Assembly (NCBI GenBank): GCA_902727895.1
Contig: CACVAP010000030.1
Location: 1-41,484 of the forward strand
Origin: an uncultured Sulfurovum sp.
Lineage (GTDB): Bacteria; Campylobacterota; Campylobacteria; Campylobacterales; Sulfurovaceae
Direction: 5' to 3'
DNA length: 41,484 bases
Shown here piece by piece: positions 359-17,521 of the stretch; the stretch's first letter is position 1, and each line of letters starts with the position of its first letter. The notes below the pieces were generated by a model. It did not search any database. It was not told the DNA's origin and saw only the letters and a program-made list of their open reading frames with translations. The position numbers and the translations under genes were made by a program.

Positions 359-1693
359 CTAAAAATCTAAATTAAACTTAACAGAAAGTGTTCCTTCTTT
401 GAACTTTGGACCCTCGTCGGAGTCCCATCTAGTGGGCGTATAGTAGTTTGAATAAATAATACTTGGGTGATAAGGTTTAGAATCAGCCCAACCAAAAGAG
501 TAAGCATATTCACCATCATTAGAACCTATACTGTCAGGTTTATAATATTCATAAGCCGTACCTGAAACAAAAAACTTATCATAAAGAAAAGTTTTAGCTG
601 AGAGGGTCAAACGATTTTGTTTTGTCGTAATATTATGTTTCAATTGAGCTGAAATCATAACATCATCTAAGACAACTGTTTTGGCTTTTATGTACACTTT
701 TTTACTGTTGCTACTCGGCTTATACTTTATTTTTGCATTCAACTTAATATTGTCAACTAAAGCAACATCTTCTACTTTAGTTTTATAAGCAAGTTCCCAG
801 TTACCACTTTGAAAATTAAATCTACTTTCACCATCTTTTGGACTAAACTTATTATTTGCATAGTTAGAATAATTCCAAGAAAAAGTATCTTGATGCCAAT
901 CGCTATACCCAAATGAATAGGAAAAATCAGGTTGATAATAAATATTATTGTAGTTGTTAATGTCTAAACTTGAGGTTGCCCCTAAAAAATAGTAAGAGTG
1001 AGGGTTTATCATAAATGTACCCTTTAATGCTTCTCTTCCACTGTTAGGCTCTTCTATATTTTGTAAGGTTGTTGAATAAGCAACGGAAAACTTAAACCAT
1101 TTATTTAAAGGTTTAAAACCCGTACCTTGTTTCTTTTTAGTTTGACGAAAAAGTGCTACTTCATCTCCTAATTGATCACTTTCAAAAAGATCAAGCTTTT
1201 CTAACTCAACAATCTCTTCTTCTTTAGTCATAGAGCTGTTATTTTGTAAACGTCTTCTCTCTGCTTCTTCTAATTCTTTCTTCTTTAATAAAGCAAGACG
1301 TTGCTTTTCTCTCTCTTTTCTTCTTTTCTCTTCTAATGCTTTTTGTTCTAATGCTTTCTTTGCTTCATATAATTCTTTATTTTTCTTCACAAGAAGTAAG
1401 CGTTCTTCTTCTTTCTGTTTCGCCACTTCAAGTGCAATTCTTTCAGCTTCTTCTACTTCTTTCTTAGCCAATTCCATCGCAATATATTCAGATTTTTTTC
1501 GTTCTGCTTCTTTTTTTCTTTTTTCTTCTACTAATCTTATTTTTTCAGCTTTTTTCTGTTTTTTGAGAAGTGCTATAGATGTATTAAGCTTTTTATCCCC
1601 TATAGCCAACTTCTTTTTAAAAACTATTAATTCTTTTTTTGCAGTTATTAACTGCTGTTTATATTTATGCCTGACCCGTTCTAACTTTGCCAA
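359..1693 (-). CDS. Coiled-coil plus outer-membrane beta-barrel protein; probably a -1 frame continuation of the upstream DUF3131 gene
   Basis: The first ~150 residues are almost purely Lys/Glu/Arg/Ala coiled coil. The remaining ~270 are alternating aromatic/polar strands ending in F (VKFNLDF), the usual C-terminus of an outer-membrane barrel. The best in-frame start is a TTG at 1693 without a well-spaced ribosome site, and there is no signal peptide, which an outer-membrane protein needs. The frame is nevertheless open back to 1761, through the stop of the upstream gene and into its A9 run. A single -1 shift at 1753-1761 joins the DUF3131 protein to this one with Lys-rich sequence on both sides. 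Either this is the C-terminal half of a fused or slippage-regulated protein, or one base is missing from the assembly. Function (pore or anchor for the polysaccharide) is inference. Confidence 0.7.
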   Translation of the reverse strand: MAKLERVRHKYKQQLITAKKELIVFKKKLAIGDKKLNTSIALLKKQKKAEKIRLVEEKRKKEAERKKSEYIAMELAKKEVEEAERIALEVAKQKEEERLLLVKKNKELYEAKKALEQKALEEKRRKEREKQRLALLKKKELEEAERRRLQNNSSMTKEEEIVELEKLDLFESDQLGDEVALFRQTKKKQGTGFKPLNKWFKFSVAYSTTLQNIEEPNSGREALKGTFMINPHSYYFLGATSSLDINNYNNIYYQPDFSYSFGYSDWHQDTFSWNYSNYANNKFSPKDGESRFNFQSGNWELAYKTKVEDVALVDNIKLNAKIKYKPSSNSKKVYIKAKTVVLDDVMISAQLKHNITTKQNRLTLSAKTFLYDKFFVSGTAYEYYKPDSIGSNDGEYAYSFGWADSKPYHPSIIYSNYYTPTRWDSDEGPKFKEGTLSVKFNLDF

Positions 1694-1746
1694 CTTTACA
1701 CGTAGTTTAGCCTTCTTTTGGGCTACTTTTTTCTTGTATAATTGAA

Positions 1747-4700
1747 CTAGTCTTTTTTTTTGGCTGCAATTTTCTTTTTCTTTACATAGTTCTTCATGTA
1801 CACTTTAAACGGTTTATACTCTTCTTTACTAATTAAAGTATTCTTATAAGGTATATGATAATCATAGTTAAATGGTCGGGTAGCTAACATAAAGTTTTCA
1901 GAGTTCACATCTCCTTGCACAATCGTAGCTCTAGGTAAATTAACCTTTAGAACATCAAGAAAATCTAATGCTTCCTCTTTTGTATCAAACATTCCTACAC
2001 GCACCACAAAGTTAACACCTTTTCTTTCCATACGTGCTAGCTCTTTTTCATCTTTTAAAGACTCCATAATTTGCTGTGCATCATAACGAAGTTCTATCTC
2101 TTTACTTTCTATGTAATACTTATTTTTTTCATTAATGGTACGTAGAGCAAGAAGATCATAAAGCTTAGGCTCTTTTGCATAGTAAAAATTTCCATTTTTC
2201 TTATAGTTTATTGCTTCTAAAACAGCTGCATTGGTACTAATATTTAATGACTTATTCGTATGTTTAGATTTTAAATAAACCCCACCATACCAACCATATC
2301 CTTCTTTATATAAATCTTTTACTTGATCCATAAGTGTTCTAGCATAATCATCAGTGTAACCATAAAGTGCATCATAAACAAAGGCTGCTTTTGTACTTAA
2401 AAGTCCTCTTTTATGCTCAGCTTTTCGACTACGATTTAAATTTTCCCAGAGTTTACCTTCATTGTAAATACTATTTTGAATCCAATGAGGTTTACGATCA
2501 AGACCCTCTTCTGTTGAGGTTGCCAATTTTCCTGTAATATTGTATCTGTCTTTTAAAGCCAAATATACATTTGATGAATAATGCTTATACTTCAAATAGT
2601 ACGGTTGCTCCATCATTGTCCATAAATAACTCTCACCATTGGTTAATCTGTCTTCAAATCCCATTGGTACTTCATGGTTGTAAATGGCTTTATAGTCTAA
2701 GTTACGCTCATCAAATAAATGGCTATAAGCTTTAATGTTAAAGAACTTCATTGCATTATAGATGTAAAACTCTTTAGCTGGATCGACTATATCTGTAGTA
2801 CCACCTTTGTCAGTTCCGTTAAACCATCTGTCCTGCATACCTTTAGCTAAAACAGCCCGTTTAAAGTCCCACTTCGCCACAATAGAAAATACATCTTGTC
2901 TGTACTTAGGATAATCTCTTTGTAAATGGAATAAACCTGTCATCATTTGTGCAACAGAATACAAGTCCCATCCACCAGCACGTCCAGCTTTTGAACCATC
3001 TTTTTTAACCATTTCACCTGTTTTTGCATTGTAGTATAAGTTAGGAAGCTCATTATTATAGATTTTCATCTTTTTTAATGTTTCCATCAATTTATCCATA
3101 CGACTGGTAAAAATATCTTTATAAATAATATCTAAAGACTCAGCAGAAATGGTTGCCATAATGGTTTTTCCAATATGCTCAGGTCTAACAACTTTATACT
3201 TGTTCAGTCCATTAACCAAACCTGTTTCAGGATTATAGTTGTTTTCAAAATAGCTCCATGCAATCTTCGCAGACTTTAAGCTTGCCTCTTCACCATTACA
3301 ATCTGCTGTTGAATTTTTCTCCATTCCACCAGCATAAGGTTCTAATATTAAGTGTTTCTTTTCTGTAGGAAGACAACGGAAGTTATTAATATTAGTACGA
3401 TACGTATCATAAATACCACGATTTTCAAGTTTATGAAGTTTCTGTAATGGTCCCATTTTAGCTGAAAGCATCCCCTCTAATATAATAGAGTTCGTATTCA
3501 ATGTCATTGCTTTATTTTGACCTGGTCGTTTCTCATAAATACCAGCATAAAACCCTTTTTTCGGGTCATAATTACCCTTTAAGTAGTTAAATACTTTTTG
3601 AGAATATGGCGTGTCAAAAAGATAATGCATTCCTAAACCAGCTTTGGTACTCACTGTTTTATATTCATCATAATCGGCACCATGCTGATTAATGGTTTTC
3701 CATGGTTCACCATTGGTATAAACGGTATTAAAAAGGAAGTATGGACGTCTGTCAATGTTGTCTTCCGTTACAGCTGTAATTTGACCTGTTCTTTTATAGC
3801 GTTCTTCTTGTACTTTATAGATGTTTCTAATATATTTACCTGATTCAGGATCATCAACACCATACTCAAAACCTAAATACCAAAATGGCTCACTCTCAAC
3901 GAAGTTAGAGAAAAACGGTCGTGTATCCGTAGGAATTTTAATACCATAAACATCAACTTCATGTAGGAACTTATATTGTCTTGCTTCTCCAGCATTATGT
4001 CCCCAAAGTTCATAGCCACGTGCAAGGTATTCTTCATAACCTGTTAAGGCTTCATGCGTAATTTGCAGATTTCCCTCAGAAGAATACTGTCCACCATATA
4101 AATCACCCTCGACACTTAAAGCACGACAATATCGGTAACGAAGTGTTAATTTCTCAATAGCAGGTGCAAGGTTCTCTTCACACTGTTCAATAACATTTAA
4201 AGAAGAAAGCAAACGTGCCATATCGGCTGCTGACCATCCCGTACCATCTTTAACTGCTTTATTTACATAGTTCACCATCTTACCCGTGTTGGTGTTGTAC
4301 GTTTTATTTGGAAGTTCATTATTAAAAAGATCCATTTTTTGCATTGTTGTTAGAAATTTACCCATCATCACTTCATAACGTTCTTGAGTAATAATACCAA
4401 ACTGTTTAGCAGCAAAAATGGCATAGTTTGCATTTGCCCAGTCCCAAGTAGCTGCTGATGGATATTTATGTGCAGCTGCTGTCAAACCTGTTTTTTCATT
4501 AAAATTGTTTTCAATGTATTTCCAAGCAACACGCGCCATTTTCATCTCTTCGGCTGTGGGCTTACAACGTAATTGACAAGGTTTAACTTCAATCCCTGGT
4601 TTAATACAGCTATCATCTTCATCTGAACCAAAAAAGCTTGAACTAGATGATGATGTTGTTGTAATGTTAGCGTCAAACTCAATAACTTTAGCTGTACGAT

Positions 4701-4797
4701 TAATCTGCCAAAAAATTGAAATTAGAAGCAACACAATAAGAAAGAGTGAAAGAATCGCTGCTAAAACGTAAAATTTATTATTTCTAATTTTATTCAT
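1747..4797 (-). CDS. Membrane-anchored protein with two DUF3131 domains and a SPOR-like C-terminal segment
   Basis: This 1016-aa protein has a membrane segment at about residues 9-31, a Ser-rich linker and three cysteines (64, 74, 78). Two DUF3131 domains (an alpha/alpha-barrel, glycoside-hydrolase-like family) follow at about 85-480 and 505-880. Domain 1 keeps the paralogue-shared motifs TWDWANANYA (W118, D119) and GWSAADMAR (187-195). Domain 2 has VRPEHIGKT and GGWDLYSVAQ at these places, so it probably lacks the same activity. Around 928-965 the segment FVVRVGMFDTKEEALDFL resembles a SPOR (peptidoglycan-binding) repeat. The tail is Lys-rich and ends on the A9 tract. I infer periplasmic glucan trimming. 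Start: AAGGATATATTAATATG. Confidence 0.82.
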   Translation of the reverse strand: MNKIRNNKFYVLAAILSLFLIVLLLISIFWQINRTAKVIEFDANITTTSSSSSSFFGSDEDDSCIKPGIEVKPCQLRCKPTAEEMKMARVAWKYIENNFNEKTGLTAAAHKYPSAATWDWANANYAIFAAKQFGIITQERYEVMMGKFLTTMQKMDLFNNELPNKTYNTNTGKMVNYVNKAVKDGTGWSAADMARLLSSLNVIEQCEENLAPAIEKLTLRYRYCRALSVEGDLYGGQYSSEGNLQITHEALTGYEEYLARGYELWGHNAGEARQYKFLHEVDVYGIKIPTDTRPFFSNFVESEPFWYLGFEYGVDDPESGKYIRNIYKVQEERYKRTGQITAVTEDNIDRRPYFLFNTVYTNGEPWKTINQHGADYDEYKTVSTKAGLGMHYLFDTPYSQKVFNYLKGNYDPKKGFYAGIYEKRPGQNKAMTLNTNSIILEGMLSAKMGPLQKLHKLENRGIYDTYRTNINNFRCLPTEKKHLILEPYAGGMEKNSTADCNGEEASLKSAKIAWSYFENNYNPETGLVNGLNKYKVVRPEHIGKTIMATISAESLDIIYKDIFTSRMDKLMETLKKMKIYNNELPNLYYNAKTGEMVKKDGSKAGRAGGWDLYSVAQMMTGLFHLQRDYPKYRQDVFSIVAKWDFKRAVLAKGMQDRWFNGTDKGGTTDIVDPAKEFYIYNAMKFFNIKAYSHLFDERNLDYKAIYNHEVPMGFEDRLTNGESYLWTMMEQPYYLKYKHYSSNVYLALKDRYNITGKLATSTEEGLDRKPHWIQNSIYNEGKLWENLNRSRKAEHKRGLLSTKAAFVYDALYGYTDDYARTLMDQVKDLYKEGYGWYGGVYLKSKHTNKSLNISTNAAVLEAINYKKNGNFYYAKEPKLYDLLALRTINEKNKYYIESKEIELRYDAQQIMESLKDEKELARMERKGVNFVVRVGMFDTKEEALDFLDVLKVNLPRATIVQGDVNSENFMLATRPFNYDYHIPYKNTLISKEEYKPFKVYMKNYVKKKKIAAKKKD
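1753..1761 (-). other. A9 homopolymer, candidate slippage or phase-variation site
   Basis: The coding strand has nine A residues read AAA AAA AAA in frame 0, then GAC and TAG. It contains an A AAA AAA heptamer, a classical -1 slippery type. A -1 slip, or one extra A in the genome, avoids the stop and enters the open frame of the coiled-coil/barrel ORF. Confidence 0.6.
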
Positions 4798-4963
4798 ATT
4801 AATATATCCTTAAAAAATCTTATTAGATATTAATCTAAATTATATCCTTTTTTTTAAAGAAAAAATATTAATTTAAAAATTATTTTAATATTTTATTAAA
4901 AATAGGTTATATTTTATTAAAATAAGTTAAAGCCTATATGAAATGTTAAATTTCTGTGAATAC

Positions 4964-6457
4964 TTATTCTAGATTAACTAATTGATGGTTAATAAACTCT
5001 ATATTTTTATTCTCAATGTCAATATAACTAGGTTGTAAAGATCTATGTTGAGGTGCAATTGGATGCATCCCCCCTTCAACCCAAAAAGGTATAATATTAT
5101 TTGAATATATGGCACTAAATACCTCAAAATCTTCAAGATGTTTAGACGGTACCGTCTGATCATTAAAACTATGTGCAACTAAAGTTGGTACATCATATTT
5201 ATTGAGTTGATTTATTGGTGAATAATTATCTAGCCATTTTAATCTCTTCTTATTATCTTCTATACCAGATAAGCTAATTTGTTTCTTTTTAGAAAAAAGT
5301 CGTAAATCTGTTGACATACTATTAAAAATACTTACTGAAATTTTATGTTTCGCTGTCAATTTTGAAATAGCTAATACAGCCAATTGTCCTCCTGCTGATT
5401 CTCCCATTACTAAAACCTTTGAACTGTTGGCATCATAACGCTGAGCATTGTTTAAAATATGTTCAACAGCAACTTTAACATCATCTACCATCTCAGCCAT
5501 ACCAATTCTTTCTTCTTCAAGTAAACGATAATTTATACTAACAGCTGTAAAGCCTCTGTCTGCATATTGCCTACAAAGGTTTTCATAACTCTTTTTATCT
5601 CCTTTAGTCCATCCTCCACCATGAACATAAATCATTAAAGGATTATTTTTACTTTTTTCTTTAGAATAAACATCGTAACCTTGGTAGAAATCAATCCCAT
5701 AACTAATCTCTTTTTGTTCAATGATTTTATTTTTAGCTTCATAAGCAATTTTATTTAAATGAAAACGTAATAGTGGACCATGATATTGAGGTTCTAATTT
5801 TATATTTTTAGGTTGGATCTTTTGGCTCTCTTTAAGAGGGAAATAGTCTAAAATCTTTTCTTCTTCTAACGCTTCTTCCATGAAATATTCAATAGAGTTT
5901 TCATCCAATGCATTAGCCCACTCCTTTTTGTACTTGCTTCCTAAAATTAAAGTCTTAGACCAATACCAGTCCATCTGTAAAGCTGGGGAAAGGGCTATGG
6001 CTGTCTCGACCTTTGAAGCTAAACCATCTAACTCTTTTTGAAAGTTCATTAAATTCTGACAAATACTACTACCCTCATCCTTTTTCTCTTTCACACAAGC
6101 TTCAAAAAGATTTACAGGACTCTCCTGCAATACCAAACCCATAATATTTTGACGAAAATAAGGAAGAAGATTTGTTTGTGCAACCGAAAGTAAGCTTCCA
6201 GTGAAACCCTTTGCCATTAAAACAACTTTTTTCTCATTGTTAATTTCAAGACGGATTTCTTTTTGTATATCTGTAATGGTATGGGTGATATTTATGTCAG
6301 GGGAAAGTAAAACTACTTTATGTTTTGAAGATTGACAAAATGACTTTTCATTTTTATCATCAAGTTCAAAACAAAGTATTTTTACCGTTTGATTACTCTC
6401 TATGTAATTAGCATATAAAAAGAAAGAGAAACAAATAATCATCGTTACTATTTTCAA
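4964..6457 (-). CDS. Exported alpha/beta-hydrolase (esterase/lipase-like), two-part
   Basis: The 497-aa protein starts with a signal peptide (about residues 1-16). The C-terminal half is an alpha/beta-hydrolase of the acetyl-esterase/BD-FAE type. It has the oxyanion motif HGGGW near 279, nucleophile elbow GESAGG near 352-357, a candidate acid Asp in FNDQTVP near 433 and His in GGMHP near 465. The N-terminal ~240 residues are not clearly assignable; a stretch GFTGSLLS could be a decayed hydrolase elbow. It lies between the CAP lipoprotein and the tandem-DUF3131 gene on the same strand. Acyl removal from the polysaccharide, opposing the OpgC-like acyltransferase, is a plausible but inferred role. 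Confidence 0.8.
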   Translation of the reverse strand: MKIVTMIICFSFFLYANYIESNQTVKILCFELDDKNEKSFCQSSKHKVVLLSPDINITHTITDIQKEIRLEINNEKKVVLMAKGFTGSLLSVAQTNLLPYFRQNIMGLVLQESPVNLFEACVKEKKDEGSSICQNLMNFQKELDGLASKVETAIALSPALQMDWYWSKTLILGSKYKKEWANALDENSIEYFMEEALEEEKILDYFPLKESQKIQPKNIKLEPQYHGPLLRFHLNKIAYEAKNKIIEQKEISYGIDFYQGYDVYSKEKSKNNPLMIYVHGGGWTKGDKKSYENLCRQYADRGFTAVSINYRLLEEERIGMAEMVDDVKVAVEHILNNAQRYDANSSKVLVMGESAGGQLAVLAISKLTAKHKISVSIFNSMSTDLRLFSKKKQISLSGIEDNKKRLKWLDNYSPINQLNKYDVPTLVAHSFNDQTVPSKHLEDFEVFSAIYSNNIIPFWVEGGMHPIAPQHRSLQPSYIDIENKNIEFINHQLVNLE

Positions 6458-6504
6458 TTATTTCCTTCACTTTACTTATTTAATAATTATAAGTTTATCT
6501 AAAA

Positions 6505-7080
6505 TTATTTATTTTCTCTATGTCCAAATTCTTCTGTCCAGTAAACTCCATACTGTGTACCAGTTTCTACCACAATACCAACACCAAACTCAGTAAAAGA
6601 ATCATTCATCATGTTTGCACAATGTCCTGGACTTGCAAGCCAACCAGCTATCACATCCGTCAGACATGAGAAACCACCACCTATGTTTTCTCCTACTATA
6701 TCATAATCTGTATAACCATGATCATCAATACGTTCTGTAAAAAAACTTTTTCTACCTCTGTTATATCCAGCAATATCATACTCCGTACCTGAACCATCAT
6801 GTGAAAATGTATCAGTCATTGCTAAGTCTCTACTATGCTCATATGCTGCTTCAGCTAATGCCGTATTCCAAACTAAAGGTTGACTAGGTCCAACAATTCC
6901 TAAGCCATCATTACAGTCAATCTTTTGATTTCGAGCTTCATTAATAGCAACTAAAATCTCATTTTCTGTAGGATAAACAAAAGATTCTGTATCGCTATTC
7001 GTAGTACTACTAGAAGTACCTCCTCCACAGTTAGTTATAAAAAAACCAACTAACACTATTAATAACCTACGATAATACAT
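6505..7080 (-). CDS. CAP/SCP-domain lipoprotein
   Basis: The 191-aa protein has an N-terminal hydrophobic segment ending FFITNC, a plausible but atypical lipobox (Asn before Cys18), then a Gly/Ser/Thr-rich linker. The rest is a CAP (cysteine-rich secretory/antigen 5/PR-1) domain: HSRDLAMTDTFSHDG, GENIGGGF, SPGHCANMM and YWTEEFG, including the conserved His and Glu positions. Bacterial CAP proteins are extracytoplasmic, and their molecular activity is mostly unknown. Start at ATG 7080 after AAGGATGAAAT. A TetR-type palindrome sits 46-59 bp upstream, so the gene may have its own regulated promoter. Confidence 0.88.
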   Translation of the reverse strand: MYYRRLLIVLVGFFITNCGGGTSSSTTNSDTESFVYPTENEILVAINEARNQKIDCNDGLGIVGPSQPLVWNTALAEAAYEHSRDLAMTDTFSHDGSGTEYDIAGYNRGRKSFFTERIDDHGYTDYDIVGENIGGGFSCLTDVIAGWLASPGHCANMMNDSFTEFGVGIVVETGTQYGVYWTEEFGHRENK

Positions 7081-7125
7081 ATTTCATCCTTGTATAAAAA
7101 CATATCTTGAGTTTATTACCAACCG

Positions 7126-7139
7126 ACCAACTGGTTGGT
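7126..7139. promoter_or_regulatory. TetR-type palindrome upstream of the CAP gene
   Basis: ACCAAC-TG-GTTGGT is a perfect 6-bp inverted repeat. A further ACCAAC copy lies just left at 7118-7123. The size and ACCnAC...GTnGGT form resemble TetR-family operators. It lies 46-59 bp upstream of the start at 7080, near where a -35 would be. No TetR gene is present in the window. Confidence 0.45.
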
Positions 7140-7229
7140 ATATTAAAAGTTTATCACTATTGCTTCACAAAGTCAATAAATATTTAAATTTTAATATTAA
7201 TATTATATATTAATAAATTTTTAATATTA

Positions 7230-7363
7230 TTGACTTTAATCATGATGAATATAATTTATTTTGTATGTTTATAAAGTATTAATGTGGGAATATGTTTCGG
7301 AGGGGAACTGTGTATAGTAGTTGTAAATGTTTAGCCATAAACAGCTAAACATTTACATTTTTT
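7230..7363 (+). ncRNA. Candidate small RNA opposite the opgC-CAP gap
   Basis: On the plus strand TTGACT (7230-7235) and TATAAT (7250-7255; spacer only 14) could be a promoter. About 65 bases on, a perfect 14-bp hairpin is followed by T6. No plausible protein lies between; only an 11-codon ATG frame (7282-7317) without a ribosome site. Both neighbouring genes are on the minus strand and would not use this terminator. The layout fits a ~100-nt independent RNA, but expression is unproven. Confidence 0.4.
7322..7363 (+). terminator. Strong Rho-independent terminator
   Basis: The arm TGTAAATGTTTAGC pairs perfectly with GCTAAACATTTACA around an 8-nt loop and is followed by TTTTTT on the plus strand. 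On the minus strand no U-run follows the stem, so it does not obviously end opgC transcription. Confidence 0.65.
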
Positions 7364-7372
7364 ATATGAATG

Positions 7373-8584
7373 TTATCGAGTGATAAAAGAAAAACCGACT
7401 TTGTACTTAACCATTAGCCACATAAAAATAAACACTAATGAGTGTGCCAAGGTATTAACTAACATATTTCCTTCTTGAAACCAAGCAATATTAGCAATTA
7501 CAATACAAGCATAAACATGTAAAATAAATACATAAAGTGATGCCTGACCGATTGGAATGAAGAACCAACCAAATACTTTGTTAATAGGCTTCCAAAAATA
7601 AGATAACAATGCATACGAAACAAAAAGTATGGCAAAGTCATTGACCAATCGTCCTAAGCCCAAAGTATTTTTCTGAAAATACTGTTTATAAATACTTCTA
7701 AAAGTATCTGGATCAATAACATGTAATCTCATATAGTCTGGAATCTTTCCTGACATTGGGTTATTGTAAGTAAAAAATAAAAGTGCTACATAAATAGCCA
7801 ATACAAGACCAAAAGCTATGGCACCTTTCTTAGAATGGAAGAAGTTCCAAACCTCATTACGATAATAACCAATCGCCAAACCATGCACAAAAAGAACTTG
7901 CCAAGATAATACTGGGAAAGCATACTCAAACTGTGCGCCTGTTGGACGTGCATTAAATCCACTGTTGGCGAAGTAAATTAACCAACTGATTGTTAAAACT
8001 GTCATTATCTGCTTTTTAGAAAATAACCATAATATAAATGGTGAAAACATCAATAAAACAACATAAAGACCTAAAATCTGAAATTGATGAGGACCATAAC
8101 GAAGCAGTACAAATTTAGCAATAATTCTGTCTTGATACTGAGCAAATAAAGCAAAGTCTGGATACAAGTTATAAACTTTTCCAGAATAAGCTTTAAAAGT
8201 CATGGCTGCTGAAGCATCCACAAATATATTAAGAACAGCAATAGATATAATAACTATTAAAGAAGTTCTGTAAAGTAAAAAAGCTCTACCAAACTGTTTT
8301 GAAATCGTTGTTCCAAGGTCATCATTTCCCATACGCATACGAGAAAGAAGTCCTAAAATGGCTCCTGAAAGCATTACAAAACCTTCAGCACCCGTAACAG
8401 CTCCTAAACGCTCCCAAGCAATAAAGTTGTAATACGAAAAAATATCAATATGGACAACAATCAAAATTAACATAACAAATCCACGGATAAAGTCTACCCG
8501 TAAATCTCTTTTACCCCCATCTGCTGGGTACTGGAACATTTGTAGAAATGAACCCATTGGTTTCATAGCTGGTATATTATTCAT
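7373..8584 (-). CDS. OpgC-like membrane acyltransferase
   Basis: The 403-aa polytopic membrane protein has about ten hydrophobic segments. Near the N-terminus is RDLRVDFIRGFVMLILIVVH, the start typical of OpgC (succinylation of osmoregulated periplasmic glucans) and related acyltransferase-3 proteins, with the conserved Arg and His in the first helix. It begins 10 bp after the stop of the single-DUF3131 gene, so the two are almost certainly cotranscribed. No opgG or opgH occurs in the window; the polymer acylated may instead be the product of the GT2 at 11665-13419. The transferred group (succinyl, acetyl or other) cannot be read from sequence. Confidence 0.87.
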   Translation of the reverse strand: MNNIPAMKPMGSFLQMFQYPADGGKRDLRVDFIRGFVMLILIVVHIDIFSYYNFIAWERLGAVTGAEGFVMLSGAILGLLSRMRMGNDDLGTTISKQFGRAFLLYRTSLIVIISIAVLNIFVDASAAMTFKAYSGKVYNLYPDFALFAQYQDRIIAKFVLLRYGPHQFQILGLYVVLLMFSPFILWLFSKKQIMTVLTISWLIYFANSGFNARPTGAQFEYAFPVLSWQVLFVHGLAIGYYRNEVWNFFHSKKGAIAFGLVLAIYVALLFFTYNNPMSGKIPDYMRLHVIDPDTFRSIYKQYFQKNTLGLGRLVNDFAILFVSYALLSYFWKPINKVFGWFFIPIGQASLYVFILHVYACIVIANIAWFQEGNMLVNTLAHSLVFIFMWLMVKYKVGFSFITR

Positions 8585-8594
8585 CTCTTATCCT

Positions 8595-9914
8595 TTATTG
8601 GTTATTAATCATTTTAAGAAGTGGACCTTCTTGTTTAAAGAGAATAGACTCTAAAACAATTGCATTAGTATTACAAGTTAATGATTTATTAATTTTCTTG
8701 TCTTTTTCATAAATTCCTGTATACCAACCTCTGTCACTCTGTAGAGGTTGAAGTGCTTCTACTAACTCTTTGGTATAGTTAGAGTCGTATAATGCATCCA
8801 TGGCAAATGAAGCTTTCGTACTTAACTGCTTCATGTCATTAATAACATTACCTTGCTCATCAATCGCTACCCATTTGTCTTTGTTAACATAAACATTATT
8901 GTAAACAAAATAAGGTGCTTGATCTAAATGATCTTCTGAAACAGCTGTTAAAATTTTTGTCTCTTTATAACGTTGTCTTTGTGCTTCGTATAAACGGTAT
9001 GAAAACTCTTTTGAGAAATAATCCCAACCAAATTCTAAACCATCTAACATATAAGGTTCCATTACAACATAGTTATTTGCATCTGAGTGTTCTTTGTCTC
9101 TTTTGTCATAAGGCACTTCAACATCATAGATGTCAATAAACTCTAAATACTTGTCATAACGTAAAGCATTACTAATATCTACCCCAAAGGTTGCAAACAT
9201 TTTAGAAGTGTATTGCTCATACCCTAAACGACCCTCTTGAAGAAGTGATTCATTACCATCTTCAACAACAGCTCCATATAAAGCACCCTCTTTGGTCATT
9301 TCTCTAACATTCCATCGTGTAAGAATCTGACGTAATTCTTTATGATACTCAGGTTGGTTAAACTGCACATACGCCATAGGAATTAAAACACGACCAATAT
9401 CAATTGCTGACCAACCAATACCATCTTTCGTATCCACATTCGCATAATCTGTCATGGCTAAAGTTGCTGCATTATAAACTTTGTTAGGAAGTACGCCTCT
9501 ATAGAGTTCCACTTTTCCTAAAGTATCCAATGCTGTACGCATACGTTTGTCATATACTTCATGCGTAATAAGCTTCAACTTCTCAGCAGAAATCAATGCC
9601 ATTAAGTAGTTACCTGTATCCCAAAGTGTTGTTGAGGGGAAGTTATCAACAGAACTTACCAATCCAGTAGCTTCATGATAATTGTTTTCAAAGTAAATCC
9701 ATGCTGTTTTAGCAGCTTGCATATCAGCAGCTGTCAGAACTTTTTTCGTTACATTTAAGTCAGGAGCAATGGCTCTTTCTATCTCAATCACACCTAATCC
9801 TTGTTTTCTCATGTCAAGATTGTTTAAAAAGTAGATGAATACACTACCAAATATTAATGCAGATAAAAAGACTATATGGTGTCTAGCTCGTTTTAAATTT
9901 TTATACTTATCCAT
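8595..9914 (-). CDS. Membrane-anchored DUF3131 protein (single domain)
   Basis: The 439-aa protein has one transmembrane segment (about residues 14-31) and one DUF3131 domain from about 60 to the end. It shares with domain 1 of the protein at 1747-4797 the motifs AAKTAWIYFENNY, TTLWDTGNYLMALISAE, ELYRGVLPNKVYN and GIGWSAIDIGR, and the C-terminal LTCNTNAIVLESILFKQEG. DUF3131 proteins resemble alpha/alpha-barrel glycoside hydrolases, so a periplasmic endoglycosidase is likely, though substrate and catalytic residues are not established here. It is packed 10 bp from opgC and 10 bp from the OmpA-like gene. Confidence 0.85.
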   Translation of the reverse strand: MDKYKNLKRARHHIVFLSALIFGSVFIYFLNNLDMRKQGLGVIEIERAIAPDLNVTKKVLTAADMQAAKTAWIYFENNYHEATGLVSSVDNFPSTTLWDTGNYLMALISAEKLKLITHEVYDKRMRTALDTLGKVELYRGVLPNKVYNAATLAMTDYANVDTKDGIGWSAIDIGRVLIPMAYVQFNQPEYHKELRQILTRWNVREMTKEGALYGAVVEDGNESLLQEGRLGYEQYTSKMFATFGVDISNALRYDKYLEFIDIYDVEVPYDKRDKEHSDANNYVVMEPYMLDGLEFGWDYFSKEFSYRLYEAQRQRYKETKILTAVSEDHLDQAPYFVYNNVYVNKDKWVAIDEQGNVINDMKQLSTKASFAMDALYDSNYTKELVEALQPLQSDRGWYTGIYEKDKKINKSLTCNTNAIVLESILFKQEGPLLKMINNQ

Positions 9915-9924
9915 ATCAATATCC

Positions 9925-11661
9925 TTACTTATTGTTTATTTTATGGGGAATCATGACAACTCTCCGATTTTTACTATAATCACTGGGCGACGTACCAAAA
10001 CTAATAGGTCGTTTTTCTCCAAAAGATTGCATGTTAAATCTATTGCTAGCAATCCCTCTACTTTGTAAATAAGTAGCTATGGAAACAGCTCTATTTTTAG
10101 TTAGCTTATCGTTATAAGCATGGCTACCACGCTGGTCGGCATGGGTTTCAATTGTATATTTATAATTAGGACAAGCGTTTATCTTATTCACAAAAGTGTC
10201 TAACATATATTGTTTGGCTGTCAAAATCTGACTACTTCCTGTTCTAAATACTTCCATGTTCATGGTAGTACTTTGCTCACACCCTACAAGTTCTTTTGCT
10301 TCCTCCACATAAATGGTTTCTTGTGGTCTAACAACTTCATAACTTACCACTTGTTGTTGAGGCATTACTCTTTCATAAGTCACAACTTTTCTATACAGTT
10401 CTTCTCCACCAACCAGAGGTGAAGTATTTGCACACACCAACTCTTTTTGAACAACGGTAGGCGCAACAAACTTTTCAACAGCTACTACTTTTTGAACAGG
10501 AACTACCTTTGGTGTAGACACTACTTTTTGTACGACTTGCTCTACTACTTTTGTCGTAACAGGCGCACGTTGATAAGCTCTAGCTGGATAAGCCTGTGCT
10601 ACTGCTCTAGGTTCCTGTACTTTCTTAACAACTGTTTTTTTAACAACCACTTTTCTAGCAGGTGCTGTATACGCTAAGTTTCCGTGAGAAGTGTAATTAA
10701 TAGCTTTTTCTTTCACTACTTGTTTAACAACTTTCTCTTTTTTTACAACAGGTTTTTGTACAACAGGTTTTTTAGCAATTTCTTTCTTTACCACAGGCTT
10801 TTTGATTACAGGTTTTTTTACTTCAGGTTTCTTTACGACCTTCTTCTTTTCAACCTTCTTCTTAGGCACAGTTTTATTTTCTGCTTTAGCTTTGTCACTA
10901 ACAAACTTTTCAACAACTTTTATAACAGCTTTTGGAAACCAGTCTTCTAGTTTTGCACAGTCAGTGGTACGCTGTGCTGTTTTCCATGTTGTTAATTGCA
11001 TATTTAAGTCAGGATTTCGTAAAACCCTAGCACCCTCTGTTAAAGAAGCCGAAACAGATGCAGAACAACAATTGTTATAAGTTTTCTTTTTCTCTCCCTT
11101 TTTATAAGGGCCTAAAAAAGCTGGAAACGATGTTGAGATGTTAATGGTTGGTTGTCCAAACTTCCACTTTACACCCTCTTTGTTCAAAAGTTTTATGTTG
11201 TGCTTTTTTAAAATGGCAATAACTTTTTTCTTAACATCAAAAGGTATTTTCATTTTTCTTTTTTTAGAACCTTGTAAATAAGAGTCTAAGTTTATGTACA
11301 CAGCTTTTAAACCTTTTAAAGACTTATTGACTTTTTCATACTTTTCTTTTCCTAAGATTACTGGCTTCTTAGGCTTAGGGTAGTAATGAACTTTCTTTTT
11401 AGGAACAGTTTTTTTCTGTGCTTCTTTTTTCTTCTGAGTATCTGTTTTTTTATTTGTGTCTTTTTTGACTTCTGTACTTTTTTTCTTTTCTGTAGTCTTC
11501 TTCTGTTCAGTACTTTTCTTATTCTCACTGTTCTTTTTCTCTTGAGGCTTTTGCTTTTGACTTTCTGTTTTCTTCTTTGGCTCCGTTTTTGTCTCTTCAG
11601 CCATCGCTGTAGTAGACAAAAAAACAAAAGAAAGAATTAAAAAAAGTATTTTATTAGGCAT
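9925..11661 (-). CDS. OmpA-family cell-wall-binding protein with long Lys/Pro-rich stalk
   Basis: The 578-aa protein has a signal peptide ending near TTAMA, then a Lys/Glu/Thr-rich low-complexity stretch (about 22-95). A globular middle (95-260) follows, then a second Lys/Val/Pro repeat region (about 265-345) built from units such as KKPVVKKE. The C-terminal ~120 residues are an OmpA peptidoglycan-binding domain: THADQRGSHAYNDKLTKNRA keeps the Asp and Arg that bind diaminopimelate. It probably tethers an envelope component to peptidoglycan. It lies 3 bp after the GT2 synthase gene and 10 bp before the DUF3131 gene, so it belongs to the polysaccharide operon. The middle domain is unrecognised. 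Confidence 0.85.
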   Translation of the reverse strand: MPNKILFLILSFVFLSTTAMAEETKTEPKKKTESQKQKPQEKKNSENKKSTEQKKTTEKKKSTEVKKDTNKKTDTQKKKEAQKKTVPKKKVHYYPKPKKPVILGKEKYEKVNKSLKGLKAVYINLDSYLQGSKKRKMKIPFDVKKKVIAILKKHNIKLLNKEGVKWKFGQPTINISTSFPAFLGPYKKGEKKKTYNNCCSASVSASLTEGARVLRNPDLNMQLTTWKTAQRTTDCAKLEDWFPKAVIKVVEKFVSDKAKAENKTVPKKKVEKKKVVKKPEVKKPVIKKPVVKKEIAKKPVVQKPVVKKEKVVKQVVKEKAINYTSHGNLAYTAPARKVVVKKTVVKKVQEPRAVAQAYPARAYQRAPVTTKVVEQVVQKVVSTPKVVPVQKVVAVEKFVAPTVVQKELVCANTSPLVGGEELYRKVVTYERVMPQQQVVSYEVVRPQETIYVEEAKELVGCEQSTTMNMEVFRTGSSQILTAKQYMLDTFVNKINACPNYKYTIETHADQRGSHAYNDKLTKNRAVSIATYLQSRGIASNRFNMQSFGEKRPISFGTSPSDYSKNRRVVMIPHKINNK

Positions 11662-11664
11662 AAG

Positions 11665-13419
11665 TTACTCCTCGTATTTAAATAGTGCTGCTTGAACAAT
11701 CGCCCATAATGAAACCATATTAAAGAATGACCACATCAAGTTAACGCTGTATCCTGTTAAGTAAATTCGCTCACCAATTAAATGCATGGTTGTTGCGTAA
11801 ATAATTGCAAGAGCATAAAGCCCAATCAATGCCATCTGTACACGTACCATAGAAAGGTAGTTACCAGCCATGGCTGTTTTTGAAGTAACCACAAACTTAA
11901 TAGGTTTTCGTCTTACAACATCCCAGAACGCTCTTAAGATAATCGGGAAAATCGCAATAAAGAACTGCCCACCACGGTTGGAGTTTATTCCCCAAGTCGC
12001 GATGAGCAATGCCATTTGGTTAAAGAACAAGAACGGTATAAGGTGAATAAAGAAATCCATCGAATAACTCTGAACAGGTGCAATGTTTGTAAACATAAAG
12101 ATAATCGGTGAGAAAAGTAATATCACCAACCAAATCGCACCTGTATAAGACCAGAAAGTAGAAAAATACATTAACTTCTGTCCTAAACTTAGACCCGATT
12201 TAAAGAAACGCCCAAACTCTTTGGTTACCAAGTCAATGGTTCCTCCTGCATATCTAAAACGCTGTGCTGACCATGTAATTAAATCCATAGGAGAAAGCAT
12301 TTTTGATTCTACATCTGGGTGCATTACGGACTTATATTTTTTTTGTTTATGTGCATGTACCAAAAGAGACGTATAAATATCTTCAGAAGTATGATAAGAG
12401 ATATACTCTACATCAAGCTCTCTAATGGCTTTATCTTGATCTTTAGACTCTAAGATTCTGTTAACCCAACGAGAGATAGCAACACGACGCAAAGCAGACG
12501 TTCTATGAATAGATGTTGCTCCACAACAAAATGATGCATTGTAGTTGTTTCTTCTTCTTTGAATTACATCAAAAAACATAGCAGGGTCATTGGCAAAAAC
12601 ATCTTCACCAACTTTTACTTTTCCAAAGAATCGCTGAAAGAAGTTCGCGCTCTTTTTTGCCACAGAACCGTAATTTTCTTGCCAGCTGTCTTCTAGGTTT
12701 TTACCTTCTGTAAGGTCACAAAACCATTGTGGTGTTTGAACCCAAGCTACGCTATCGTCTTTAAAGTAACCCATGGTATTGAGTAAAATGTTTGGAAATA
12801 AGCGTGTATCCGAATCAATAATCACAATAAAATCACCTAATGATTCATCCATTGCATTGGTAATGGCTCCAGCTTTACGACCTTTTGAAGAGGTTCTTAA
12901 AATCTGAGGAACCCCCTCTTCTTTCGTCATTTTCGTCATCTCTTCATTACCACTGTCATCTAGTAGATAGTAACAAACATCCCAAGTTGGAAGTTTTTTA
13001 ACAGCTTTAGCAGCATGAATGGTTTCACGTACTAAAGCAGGGTCTTCGTTAAAAACAGGAATGTAAACATCTATCTTGATTTTTTTATCTTGATAAACGG
13101 CTACTTGTCCATCTTCTACCACGTCATCCATGGTTTTAGGTGCTGACTTTTTCTTAGTATCTTTTATATGCCAAAAGTTAATTACTACTAAAATAGTACC
13201 AATAAACATCATGGTCTCTGCAAATGCTAGAGGAATGGCAAACCAAAGGGCTTCCATATTTAATGATTCTGTCCAACGATAATGTAAATACCAGAGACCT
13301 AACATAATTGCCACAACACCAAAAAACTGGAAGAGTGACTGATTTAATTCAGATGGTTCTTGTGGTGTTTCTGGTACTCGGTCATCATATTTAGGTTCTA
13401 GGAAATATAGTTCATTCAC
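11665..13419 (-). CDS. Membrane glycosyltransferase, family 2 (cellulose-synthase-like)
   Basis: The 584-aa processive-type GT2 has two N-terminal membrane segments, a cytosolic catalytic domain and several C-terminal membrane segments. Motifs in order: PVFNEDP, DDSGN near 153, DSDTR near 201, TSED near 345 (catalytic base) and QRFRYAGG near 389. The last replaces the Q(Q/R)xRW of BcsA with QRFRY. It probably polymerises and translocates a beta-glycan from an NDP-sugar. No PilZ domain is seen at the C-terminus. The GTG start overlaps the GH2 stop by one base (TAGTG), implying translational coupling. This is the only polymerase in the locus, so it most likely defines the polymer. Confidence 0.88.
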   Translation of the reverse strand: MNELYFLEPKYDDRVPETPQEPSELNQSLFQFFGVVAIMLGLWYLHYRWTESLNMEALWFAIPLAFAETMMFIGTILVVINFWHIKDTKKKSAPKTMDDVVEDGQVAVYQDKKIKIDVYIPVFNEDPALVRETIHAAKAVKKLPTWDVCYYLLDDSGNEEMTKMTKEEGVPQILRTSSKGRKAGAITNAMDESLGDFIVIIDSDTRLFPNILLNTMGYFKDDSVAWVQTPQWFCDLTEGKNLEDSWQENYGSVAKKSANFFQRFFGKVKVGEDVFANDPAMFFDVIQRRRNNYNASFCCGATSIHRTSALRRVAISRWVNRILESKDQDKAIRELDVEYISYHTSEDIYTSLLVHAHKQKKYKSVMHPDVESKMLSPMDLITWSAQRFRYAGGTIDLVTKEFGRFFKSGLSLGQKLMYFSTFWSYTGAIWLVILLFSPIIFMFTNIAPVQSYSMDFFIHLIPFLFFNQMALLIATWGINSNRGGQFFIAIFPIILRAFWDVVRRKPIKFVVTSKTAMAGNYLSMVRVQMALIGLYALAIIYATTMHLIGERIYLTGYSVNLMWSFFNMVSLWAIVQAALFKYEE

Positions 13420-15560
13420 TACTTATCCTTTTTGTTTTTTACCATTAACGGTGTAAGTTTATAACTGTTTACAGCAAGTGTTTGTCCATCTTTGTCTTTT
13501 AATTCTATGTCTAACTTTACATCTCCTTGAAGCTGTAAAGCTGTTCCTAGCTTTATCAAAGAATCTCTATTAATACTTACTGGATAGTCGTAATTCTTAG
13601 TCCTATTATTGGTAGTTAATTTTAAATGAAATGTTGCGCCTTCAATAGCTTGAAGCGTATCGTTCACAACAAAAAACTCTATTTTGTTATCATTATTTTG
13701 CTTCGCCACCACAATAATGGGTGCGTAAGCTTCTTTTAATGCTCGGTAACCCATCTTAGGTTCTAAGTAATAATCCACAACGCCCCAGTTCATAGAAGGC
13801 CAACCCTCTTTAAACATGAATTGAAATATGGCTGTTGTCTTATCATACTTTTGAATACGAAGCATCTCGGTTGCAAATTTAGTTAAGTCATATTGGTACT
13901 GTTGAGAATCTTTAATAAACTGCTTCACACTGCCTTTAAACTCAACACCATAATCTTTAGAATTTTTAAATTGGAAGTTATGGTATTCCCAATGGGCTTT
14001 GGCTTTTTTAGAGGTTGGTTTTAAATATTTATTGGGTACAAACTTCTTAAGACTCTCAAAATTTGGAATAGCCTGTGCGCCATACTCTGTAATAACTTGT
14101 GCGCGTGATGGTTTAACAAAATCACGGTAAGTTTGAGAGTACCAACCATACCAAGGATGCTCAACATTAGAAGAGACTTTTTTTGTTATATGAAAAGTAT
14201 CATAGGCACTAACAACATCGTATAACTTTTGGTCTAGTTTTTTATTTTGCTCTGGATTATAATCTGGATATTTCCATTTCATCCAACTTGAATCCCAAGG
14301 TGGCTCATTATGCATCGTCCAGATATAAATACTTGGATGGTTATAAAGTAAATCAACCATTTCAATGGCTTGTTTCACAGCTTCTTTTTCAAAAGCTTTC
14401 GACTCACTGTATCCCCATTGAAGGTTATAATCTTGCCAAACTAAAAAACCCATCTCATCACATAGCTTGTAAAACCTTTTTGGTTCAACATGTGCATGCA
14501 CACGAATGGCATTGATATGTGCATCTTTCATAAGCTGTAAATCTTTACGTAAAGCCTCTTCATCCATCTCTGACATGTATTGACTAGAGATGTAGTTTGT
14601 ACCTTTTATGTAAATATTATCACCATTTAAGAAGTGTGCTTTACCATTGTTTTGAACTAAGGTTTTAAATCCTGTTTGAATTGTGTGCTTTGTATCAGCA
14701 GTTTCAAGTGTTAAGTTATATAAGTGAGGAAAGCCTCTGTCATGTGTTGTCCAAAGTTTAGCACCTTCTAACGAAAACGATAGTTCTTGATTTTTTGCAT
14801 GTTTAACTTCGAACTCTTTGACAAAAGTTTTACCTTCAAAGTTTGAAGGAGCTACTGTCACTTTAACTTTAGAGCTTGAATTAAAAAATGAACGCTCAAA
14901 TCTTTTTAAATCAAATTTTATCTTTAAATCAACAAGGTTTTCTTTTAAAGTTGGCGTAACTTTAAGGGCTTCAAACTTGTGTTCGTTATAACTTTTAATG
15001 CTTACATCATTCCAAATACCACCAGAGTTTCTGTCTTGACCTTTAGCAGACCAAGCACCTCCAGGACGCGTGTCATGATGTCCAAAAACACCACGAAGTA
15101 ATGTTTTACGTAAACTATAGTTCTGAGGATAGTTTTCTAATGGAGAATTTACTTTAACCACAATGCTATTTTTAGCATCTGTCAAATAATCACTAATATC
15201 AAATTCAAACGTTTGAAAGTATCCTTTATGAGAACCTACTAAATAACCATTTACCCAAACATCACAAAGATAGTCAACCCCTTTAAAATTTAAAAAATGT
15301 TTTGTATCTTTAGGAAATTTAGAAGCATCTATCTCTTTTTTGAACCAAATAATTCCAGCATGATTAACACCTTGTTTGTACCAGTTATTGGGTAAAGTCA
15401 TTTTAGGGTCATCAGCAGAAAATTCGTAGTGGTAACCTTCTGCTTTTGGTTCATGATTGATGTGATATTGCCACTCTCCAGCAAGAGAAACTGTCTGAGG
15501 GAAGACAGTACTTGCTTGGATTGAGATAAGGGTTAAAAGTAGTATAAATATATATCTCAT
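13419..15560 (-). CDS. Secreted glycoside hydrolase family 2 protein
   Basis: The 713-aa protein begins with a signal peptide (about residues 1-17) followed by GH2 domains. A sugar-binding jelly roll at about 20-190 contains FLNFKGVDYLCDVWVNG. An Ig-like domain follows at about 195-305 and a TIM barrel at about 310-600. The catalytic acid/base is the Glu of MHNEPPW near 418, and the nucleophile is probably the Glu of ITEYGAQ near 492. GH2 includes beta-galactosidases, beta-mannosidases and beta-glucuronidases; specificity is not determinable here. Position before and overlapping the GT2 gene suggests editing or recycling of the same polymer in the periplasm. Confidence 0.9.
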   Translation of the reverse strand: MRYIFILLLTLISIQASTVFPQTVSLAGEWQYHINHEPKAEGYHYEFSADDPKMTLPNNWYKQGVNHAGIIWFKKEIDASKFPKDTKHFLNFKGVDYLCDVWVNGYLVGSHKGYFQTFEFDISDYLTDAKNSIVVKVNSPLENYPQNYSLRKTLLRGVFGHHDTRPGGAWSAKGQDRNSGGIWNDVSIKSYNEHKFEALKVTPTLKENLVDLKIKFDLKRFERSFFNSSSKVKVTVAPSNFEGKTFVKEFEVKHAKNQELSFSLEGAKLWTTHDRGFPHLYNLTLETADTKHTIQTGFKTLVQNNGKAHFLNGDNIYIKGTNYISSQYMSEMDEEALRKDLQLMKDAHINAIRVHAHVEPKRFYKLCDEMGFLVWQDYNLQWGYSESKAFEKEAVKQAIEMVDLLYNHPSIYIWTMHNEPPWDSSWMKWKYPDYNPEQNKKLDQKLYDVVSAYDTFHITKKVSSNVEHPWYGWYSQTYRDFVKPSRAQVITEYGAQAIPNFESLKKFVPNKYLKPTSKKAKAHWEYHNFQFKNSKDYGVEFKGSVKQFIKDSQQYQYDLTKFATEMLRIQKYDKTTAIFQFMFKEGWPSMNWGVVDYYLEPKMGYRALKEAYAPIIVVAKQNNDNKIEFFVVNDTLQAIEGATFHLKLTTNNRTKNYDYPVSINRDSLIKLGTALQLQGDVKLDIELKDKDGQTLAVNSYKLTPLMVKNKKDK

Positions 15561-15594
15561 AATAAATTCTTTCTTATGTTGATTTGCTTTTAGG

Positions 15595-16773
15595 TTAACG
15601 GCTGGTCTCTAAGTCAGAAATATGTTGAATCATTTCCATAATTTCTTTTTGTTCTTCGCTTAAAACACCTTCTTCTTTTCTTGCATCATCCACTAGGAAA
15701 CTCATATCTGACTCTTCAATATCAATCGAAGTTCCAAGAGGGTTAATAATATATTTACCAGCAATAATTTTTTTGTCAATCTGAGCATGTTTACTCACTT
15801 TGGTATAACCAAGAACGACAGACTCACTAACTTTTGCATCTTCTTTAATAATACATCCCGAACCAATCATTGAAGGACCTACAATTTTGGCTCCTTTTTC
15901 TAAACGCACACTTGAACCAAAATAGATAGGAGCAACAAGCTCAACCTCATCTAAATTAATGTCACAGTTAATTCCTGCCCAAATACCAGGTTGAATCTCT
16001 TTTCCATATGGTTTTACCCCATTAATCTCTTCATTCACCAACATCATGTTTGCTTCATAAAAGTCTTTAGTTGATCCAACATCTACCCATTGGAACTTAG
16101 GAGCAGTTGCATAGAATGGCTCACCTTTTTCAACAAGTAGTGGTAAAAGTTCTCCACCAATATCAAACTCACCATCATCAGGAATATAGTCAAATACTTT
16201 TGGATCAAAAATATAAATACCTGTGTTAATAATATTACTTTTTGCTTCTTCTACTTTTGGCTTTTCTTGGAATGAAAGAACCTTGTTATTTTCATCTGTA
16301 ACAACAACACCATATTTGTAAACTTCATCTTTTGGAACTTCTTTACAAATTACGGTTGCAGTTGCATTGTTCTTTTTATGAAAATTCATCGCAGCTGTAA
16401 AGTCAAGGTCAATTAAGGCATCACCACAAATAACCAAGAATGGCTCATCAAAGAACTTTGAATAATCTTGCACTTTTTTAAGTCCACCAGCAGAACCCAG
16501 TCCTATAGGAACAATCTCACCCTCAACCAGTTTACCTTCTAAAGAGTAAGCGATTTGCATATCGTAGTCTGCACCACCTTTATAGTGATCTTCAATGGTA
16601 TTTGCCATGTATCCAACGGTTACAATTACTTCATCAAAACTATGCTTCTTTAATAATTCAAGTAAAAAACTCATAATTGGTCTCTCTACAATTGGTACCA
16701 TTGGTTTTGGTAACATGTATGTTAATGGTCTAACACGTGTACCTTTTCCTCCTGCTAATATAACTGCTTTCAT
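15595..16773 (-). CDS. NDP-sugar pyrophosphorylase (nucleotidyltransferase plus left-handed beta-helix)
   Basis: The 392-aa protein starts with the nucleotide-binding signature MKAVILAGGKGTRVRPLT, then PKPMVPI and later VICGDALIDLD. The C-terminal part from about residue 255 has hexapeptide-like repeats (IYFGSSVRLEKGAKIVGPS). This is the architecture of mannose-1-phosphate guanylyltransferase and glucose-1-phosphate uridylyl/adenylyltransferase-like enzymes. It should activate the sugar 1-phosphate for the GT2 enzyme. The gene is 16 bp after the RsbW-like gene and 34 bp before the GH2 gene. Which nucleotide and sugar are used is unknown. Confidence 0.88.
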   Translation of the reverse strand: MKAVILAGGKGTRVRPLTYMLPKPMVPIVERPIMSFLLELLKKHSFDEVIVTVGYMANTIEDHYKGGADYDMQIAYSLEGKLVEGEIVPIGLGSAGGLKKVQDYSKFFDEPFLVICGDALIDLDFTAAMNFHKKNNATATVICKEVPKDEVYKYGVVVTDENNKVLSFQEKPKVEEAKSNIINTGIYIFDPKVFDYIPDDGEFDIGGELLPLLVEKGEPFYATAPKFQWVDVGSTKDFYEANMMLVNEEINGVKPYGKEIQPGIWAGINCDINLDEVELVAPIYFGSSVRLEKGAKIVGPSMIGSGCIIKEDAKVSESVVLGYTKVSKHAQIDKKIIAGKYIINPLGTSIDIEESDMSFLVDDARKEEGVLSEEQKEIMEMIQHISDLETSR

Positions 16774-16789
16774 AATTTATTCCTTATAT

Positions 16790-17182
16790 TTATATTTCAA
16801 AAACCAATTTAATTAAGTTTTTATTTACTTCTATCTCTGTACATGTTAATACGGCTAATTTGAGACCTCTTCCACCTTCGGAAAGGTAGTCTAATTCTGC
16901 TGCTTCTTCTTTTGTAGGAAGAGGTGGGTAACCTTCTCCTTCATCTTTCATCGTAATAATAATTTTCTCATCATCTGACTGAAAATCAATTACAACTTTT
17001 TTAGAGGCCTCTAGCATATTTCCATGGACAATAGCATTCGTCACAATCTCTTGACTAATTAACAATACTTTGTTACGAACCTTCGAACTAATTCCTGCAT
17101 CAAGACGTGTCTCAACCCAAGTGTAGACCTTTGGAACTTCTTCAATCGTACTGTTGATTATGAGAGTATCTTTGGGCATCAT
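16790..17182 (-). CDS. RsbW/SpoIIAB-like serine kinase (HATPase, anti-sigma type)
   Basis: The 130-aa single-domain GHKL ATPase has its N-box at EIVTNAIVHGN, G1 box DEGEGYPP and G2 region GGRGLKL. This size and motif set fit partner-switching kinases that phosphorylate a STAS protein. The STAS gene lies 18 bp upstream and the PP2C phosphatase gene is divergent at 17789, so all three parts of a switch are together. Its target could be a sigma factor or, as in some biofilm systems, a non-sigma effector; no sigma factor is in the window. Start ATG at 17182, with another ATG directly after it. Confidence 0.88.
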   Translation of the reverse strand: MMPKDTLIINSTIEEVPKVYTWVETRLDAGISSKVRNKVLLISQEIVTNAIVHGNMLEASKKVVIDFQSDDEKIIITMKDEGEGYPPLPTKEEAAELDYLSEGGRGLKLAVLTCTEIEVNKNLIKLVFEI

Positions 17183-17200
17183 TTCAATTCTTTTATAAAA

Positions 17201-17521
17201 TTAATTACTAGCTTCAGTAATGGTAAAAATCTTATCTAACTGAGTAATCTCCAAAAGTTCAATTGGCTGTTCATTTAGAGCAGAAAGTTCTAATGACCCT
17301 TCAAGCGTTTTTAAATGTTTAAATACACTGATTAATACACTTAAACCTGAACTATCAATAAACTCTACTTCTTTAAGGTTAATAATTAAATGATGATTTT
17401 CTTCTCCAATAACCTTAAGAATATCGTCCTTCAATGCTTTCATGTTTGAAACATCTAATTTTTTTCTCTTAATATCTACTATAATTTGTTTGCTGTTCTC
17501 TACTTGTGTTATCTTTGTCAT
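17201..17521 (-). CDS. STAS-domain anti-sigma-factor antagonist
   Basis: The 106-aa single STAS domain contains VEFIDSSGLSVLISVFKHL, the DSSGL loop with the serine normally phosphorylated by an RsbW-type kinase. A good ribosome site (AAAGGAAAC) precedes the ATG at 17521. It is first in a close-packed minus-strand gene series continuing through the kinase into the polysaccharide genes. By analogy with RsbV/SpoIIAA it would be dephosphorylated by the divergently encoded PP2C protein and then sequester the kinase. Confidence 0.9.
   Translation of the reverse strand: MTKITQVENSKQIIVDIKRKKLDVSNMKALKDDILKVIGEENHHLIINLKEVEFIDSSGLSVLISVFKHLKTLEGSLELSALNEQPIELLEITQLDKIFTITEASN

Follow-up and report, generated by a model that had tools for sequence, protein, structure and literature searches.

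A slippery A run apparently retained across an order of sulfur bacteria so that a DUF3131 protein is made both with and without an outer-membrane barrel

Among the closest described counterparts of the locus reported here is dnaX, in which the N-terminal part is common to both products and the slippery sequences are the same: the -1 ribosomal frameshift of E. coli takes place on A_AAA_AAG, and Thermus employs transcriptional slippage on A9. In some bacteria it is the longer dnaX product that arises by frameshifting, and the zero-frame stop follows the site immediately (PMC5009743). Similarly, csoS2 of the carboxysome and magnesium chelatase are expressed by -1 frameshifting in some species and exist as in-frame versions in others (PMC5009743; PMC3711429). 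With respect to gene content, the nearest relatives are the DUF3131/OpgC/GT2 loci of Vibrio, Pantoea and Klebsiella, where the same gene set and a homologous barrel are found in plasmid records; an accessory block of Klebsiella has been described that includes cellulose synthase, three DUF3131 proteins and OpgC (PMC12974863). As for protein layout, the OmpM tether of Veillonella carries a peptidoglycan-binding part, a stalk and a barrel in one protein (PMC10628300). Finally, the GH144 endo-beta-1,2-glucanases and GH189 resemble the second DUF3131 domain in predicted fold.

We analyzed a 41,484-nucleotide stretch of DNA from an uncultured Sulfurovum sp. (hereafter, the window), whose locus differs from each of these systems. 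The protein is unrelated to dnaX, it would be relocated by the part added, an outer-membrane barrel, and no upstream Shine-Dalgarno-like stimulatory element was seen by eye. csoS2 and magnesium chelatase differ in protein, compartment and purpose. In the Gammaproteobacterial locus, the barrel is a gene of its own with a signal peptide, and each DUF3131 protein likewise has its own gene. OmpM, only a weak fold match to the window barrel (Z 10.5), is without recoding, enzyme domain or inner-membrane helix, so that the likeness is one of layout only. The locus adds to the known examples of programmed -1 recoding one whose product is unusual, although expression evidence is absent. The literature search yielded no report of recoding by which a periplasmic enzyme gains an outer-membrane barrel, nothing joining ribosomal frameshifting with bacterial outer-membrane barrels or with Sulfurovum, and, in the literature on DUF3131, nothing on frameshifting. 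To our knowledge, few families of cellular bacterial genes outside mobile elements show conserved recoding.

Table 1. Coordinates of the junction, the two reading frames and the upstream genes in the window
Feature	Position	Strand	Remarks
A9 slippery run	1753-1761	minus	in-phase heptamer A_AAA_AAA at 1753-1759
Zero-frame stop TAG	1747-1749	minus	one codon (GAC) past the A9 run
-1 frame open stretch	359..1804	minus	481 codons and stop; ~464 residues added after a shift
Zero-frame ORF, 1016 aa	1747..4797	minus	encodes the helix, both DUF3131 domains and the SPOR-like domain listed below; lysine-rich tail, last residues KKKD
N-terminal hydrophobic helix, residues 7-37	4687..4779	minus	from sequence; helix in predicted model
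First DUF3131 domain	3463..4539	minus	profile match
Second DUF3131 domain	2191..3273	minus	profile match and predicted fold
SPOR-like domain, residues 906-960	1918..2082	minus	20.0 bits
Long K/E-rich helical (coiled-coil) linker	1136..1762	minus	-1 frame
Predicted 14-stranded outer-membrane beta-barrel	362..1096	minus	predicted fold; C-terminal Phe (FNLDF)
Upstream genes	4964..17521	minus	esterase, CAP protein, OpgC, single DUF3131, OmpA-domain, GT2 glycosyltransferase, GH2-like, nucleotidyltransferase, ATPase, STAS

At the junction, the minus strand at 1747-1770 reads ATT GCA GCC AAA AAA AAA GAC TAG, exactly as described in an earlier note on this DNA, in which the DUF3131 gene of 1016 codons was said to end GCC-A9-GAC-TAG. 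The A9 is the sole run of nine or more adenines in the gene (1017 codons with the stop). The -1 frame, which ends at 359, is open through the zero-frame TAG back into the A9. Its first candidate start is a TTG located 53 nt past the zero-frame stop, and the first ATG lies at +269; there is no ATG near the junction and no hydrophobic signal sequence, and the product opens as a K/E-rich helix. The claim that the next ORF has neither an ATG nor a signal peptide and is open in the -1 frame through the stop is thereby borne out. A shift on the A9 would join 1015 and 464 residues into a chain of 1479 aa, in agreement with the ~1,480 aa anticipated from one slip. The interval assigned to the finding, 1691-1770, covers the junction but leaves the remainder of both ORFs outside.

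In the window protein, the DUF3131 profile (PF11329) matched two stretches above its cut-off (626.7 bits). DUF3131 forms an (alpha/alpha) toroid in the predicted model, and the predicted fold of the second domain matches GH144 and the cyclisation domain of GH189 (Z 29.5 and 33.7, respectively), with sequence identity of just 12-13%. The predicted fold of DUF3131 resembles that of beta-1,2-glucan enzymes, a similarity of fold only, without activity data; no enzyme activity of DUF3131 is reported in the literature searched. The N-terminal helix is a probable inner-membrane anchor, by inference, and a cleavage site is not obvious. As to the SPOR-like domain, also claimed in the earlier note, the window protein itself scores slightly under the Pfam cut-off (20.0 against 21 bits), although 11 of 15 homologues match SPOR (PF05036) at E <= 0.01 (best 4e-8).

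The barrel encoded in the -1 frame had no convincing family match in Pfam, NCBIfam or PDB sequence searches. By predicted fold, it matches CymA (Z 15.2 over 221 residues, rmsd 4.2) and OmpG (Z about 14), with lower scores for OmpM1 and BcsC. A closed barrel with an even number of amphipathic strands and a C-terminal aromatic residue is expected of an outer-membrane barrel, and the 14 predicted strands, the fold matches and the F or Y that ends the aligned members fit this description. In informative pairs, dN/dS of the barrel frame was 0.17-0.21 (window/L012, 0.20; window/L004, 0.21; L037/L039, 0.17; L005/L016, 0.18), similar to or slightly higher than the 0.08-0.19 of the DUF3131 part. Judging from these substitution ratios, the barrel frame is coding and under purifying selection.

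Homologues were gathered from genome contigs and related genomes and, after removal of duplicate contig copies, 15 loci were readable across the junction (L045 being the full contig that holds L012). The barrel ORF lies in the -1 frame relative to the DUF3131 gene in 13 of these, in frame in two, and in the +1 frame in none. The 13 split loci represent 10 lineages, roughly 45-91% identical in the DUF3131 part. The two in-frame loci are single-gene fusions, L038 (1381 codons) and L041 (1455 codons). In the maximum-likelihood tree, the -1 state occurs in every major branch, and the in-frame loci are nested among -1 relatives. Furthermore, the barrel and tandem DUF3131 co-occur in the same 11 of the 399 genomes of the order. 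Three loci were left out: L051 (G657), in which several genes are broken by frameshifts, and L052 (G660) and L042 (G128:C26), which contain a barrel remnant and a barrel fragment, respectively, without a DUF3131 junction. A weak match in G521 was disregarded. Two of the analyses that the earlier note had proposed were informative: alignment of the related genomes showed the same -1 relation together with a slippery site in 13 of 15 loci, and the search for homologues combining DUF3131 and barrel in one gene recovered the two fusions. This conservation, the purifying selection and the fusions lend strong support to the notion that the DUF3131 protein and the barrel are fused by one slip.

Several observations were made on the loci outside the main set or on individual members. 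In L051:2573-9510, shifts interrupt the reading frames of the glycosyltransferase, DUF3131 and the barrel alike, which reflects either decay or an indel-rich assembly. At L052:2256-2381, the barrel is reduced to its last 42 residues and lies near a transposase-like ORF; L042:7881-8171, in G128, is an additional short piece of barrel located apart from the DUF3131 locus. The fused gene of L041 (positions 1496-5860, G196) retains an A10 at the junction, so that slippage there would shorten the product, the reverse of the situation in the window.

The recurrence of the layout bears on whether the split in the window genome could have arisen in sequencing or assembly or could mark a broken gene. 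The run is a homopolymer, the assembly is a draft of 105 contigs, and the G657 locus is broken at several places. However, the same layout is found in 13 loci from many assemblies, including G019, which is 91% identical in DUF3131 and has the A9 followed by a different codon, and the barrel frame is under purifying selection. Most of the sequences are metagenome assemblies, in which long A runs can be miscounted, yet independent genomes agree. We regard an artefact or a broken gene as scarcely credible.

An in-phase A_AAA_AAA or A_AAA_AAG is present inside the overlap of the zero and -1 frames in all 13 split loci. In six of these (L006, L045, L014, L016, L037 and L039) the overlap spans only 13-28 nt, so that the shift has almost nowhere else to occur. 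The overlap carries the sole run of nine or more adenines of the gene in ten loci (for L045, only the last 59 codons are visible); L017 has two such runs in the gene, and L004 and L014 have none. Five loci (L004, L014, L019, L037 and L039) have their sole in-phase A_AAA_AAR, in a gene of ~1000 codons, in the overlap. In L017, where only an upstream A10 provides a run of nine or more at the junction, there is more than one candidate slip site. The zero-frame stop follows the run by no more than one codon in 8 of the 10 lineage representatives. When the last 60 codons of each of these 10 genes were shuffled with their lysine-rich composition preserved, the probability that every overlap would contain a slippery site was about 1e-14. 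The proximity of the stop had P about 6e-6. Both values assume independent lineages and are thus somewhat overstated.

Could the barrel be a second, separate protein whose translation begins by termination-reinitiation or at a weak start? The ORFs do overlap, and in some members a TTG or GTG lies 20-80 nt past the stop. However, L006 has no start ahead of the barrel, its first -1 frame start being an ATG at +251, already inside the barrel, and the first start of L016 is at +230, distances too great for coupled reinitiation. Moreover, none of the -1 products has a signal peptide, although the barrel must be exported and the separate barrels of Gammaproteobacteria have one, and two fused genes exist. 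This explanation appears highly improbable. According to the earlier note, homologues with a separate barrel gene having its own signal peptide would speak against the fusion; such genes do exist in Gammaproteobacteria, but the analysable loci of Campylobacterota are all either fused or split in the -1 relation.

The nature of the slip may differ among the members. The junction carries A9-A11 in 10 of the 13 split loci, including the window, and A6G in L004 and L014. In L004, a hairpin is predicted a few bases downstream of A_AAA_AAG (z -3.1), and L014 has a weaker one at the same position. In the clade of L004 and L014, the slip is most likely ribosomal, because the site is of the dnaX type and is followed by a hairpin, and six adenines are short for transcriptional slippage. 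A stimulatory structure past the site is usual in -1 ribosomal frameshifting but not obligatory. The downstream fold of the window has z -1.6, several other loci have no downstream structure, and no stimulatory structure was common to all members, the folds differing between clades. For the A9-A11 members, the window among them, ribosomal slippage, transcriptional slippage or both could give the same products. Recoding might also be purely transcriptional, with RNA polymerase adding an A on the run and ribosomes reading normally. The prevalence of A9-A11 junctions is compatible with this, as coding regions commonly show selection against A runs once these reach nine nucleotides (PMC1088944). 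Against it, L004 and L014 have only A6G, the ribosomal heptamer of E. coli dnaX, together with a hairpin; dnaX orthologues use either route (PMC3711429), so that the members may differ. We consider an exclusively transcriptional mechanism unlikely, albeit not negligible.

A run of this kind can also change length at replication, in which case the cells would be either fused (on) or interrupted (off) and the sampled genomes would be mostly off. Such phase variation is suggested by the comparison of L038 (A11, fused) with L039 (A10, -1), which are otherwise nearly identical and differ at the junction by one A, so that run length does change between close relatives. Most members have A9-A11 runs, the product is surface-exposed, and a GeneTack survey ties poly-A tracts to phase variation of surface proteins (PMC3711429). 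However, the mixture of frames expected under this scenario is absent: the out-of-frame loci, from 10 lineages, are all -1 and none is +1 (about 0.001 for random frames). Furthermore, L004 and L014 hold the -1 relation with a short A6G tract, and the stop close behind the run is unneeded by a replication switch. The data are better accounted for by recoding that sets a ratio than by on/off switching through phase variation, which we judge improbable as the general explanation; phase variation may operate on top of recoding in some lineages.

We consider it very likely that the gene pair is subject to conserved programmed -1 recoding at the A-rich site, so that two proteins are produced from it; there is no peptide, ribosome-profiling or cDNA evidence. 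Ordinary decoding would end at the TAG after the run and give a 1016-aa periplasmic enzyme behind an N-terminal membrane helix. A fraction of the ribosomes, or transcripts with one extra A, would enter the -1 frame and add ~464 residues, predicted to comprise the helical linker and the 14-stranded barrel, for a long form of ~1479 aa. The production of both products is inferred, and so is the role of the long form in tying a beta-glucan-processing enzyme to its outer-membrane channel. From the domain order, it is plausible that the chain spans both membranes at once, although this has not been demonstrated. More tentatively, and with the odds somewhat against it, slippage may set the ratio of free to outer-membrane-bound glucan enzyme, the bound form being an inner-membrane-anchored, peptidoglycan-contacting polypeptide with an outer-membrane channel; slippage, by ribosome or polymerase, would then govern how a trans-envelope conduit is built. 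Because the two products are identical except for the barrel, the locus allows a direct test of whether slippage sets the ratio of free to membrane-tethered enzyme, and also of whether one chain can anchor in both membranes. Throughout the group, it is misleading to annotate the locus as a complete gene followed by a hypothetical orphan ORF.

The genes upstream of the junction in the window, with GT2, OpgC, a nucleotidyltransferase, a second DUF3131 gene, OmpA, STAS and ATPase among them, probably constitute a polysaccharide locus, for glucan or exopolysaccharide. The same gene set is found on Gammaproteobacterial plasmids with the homologous barrel as a separate gene; beyond Campylobacterota, only plasmid records were sampled. 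An apparent signal peptide is present at the barrel start in Vibrio, Salmonella and Pantoea and in an Edwardsiella orphan, whereas for the Chimaeribacter barrel the annotated start lies too far downstream for one to be visible. The two proteins, separate in Gammaproteobacteria, are joined here, which suggests, by inference, that they work together, as the enzyme and the outer-membrane channel for the same glucan.

At 16790-18964 of the window, the STAS and ATPase genes are divergent from a response regulator with an SpoIIE-type phosphatase, forming a partner-switching set that is likely to regulate the glucan locus. The same set is also located beside the Gammaproteobacterial loci L072, L075 and L076. 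The Edwardsiella orphan, a barrel homologue with a signal peptide (L074:5755-6627), lies among the tail genes of the prophage-like Edwardsiella tarda plasmid pFL6-60, adjoining a gene for an outer-membrane protein of the Lom type, and is possibly an extra gene carried by a phage. Elsewhere in the window, a transposase gene (DDE_Tnp_1; 25499-26344) is located between two sensor-kinase genes.
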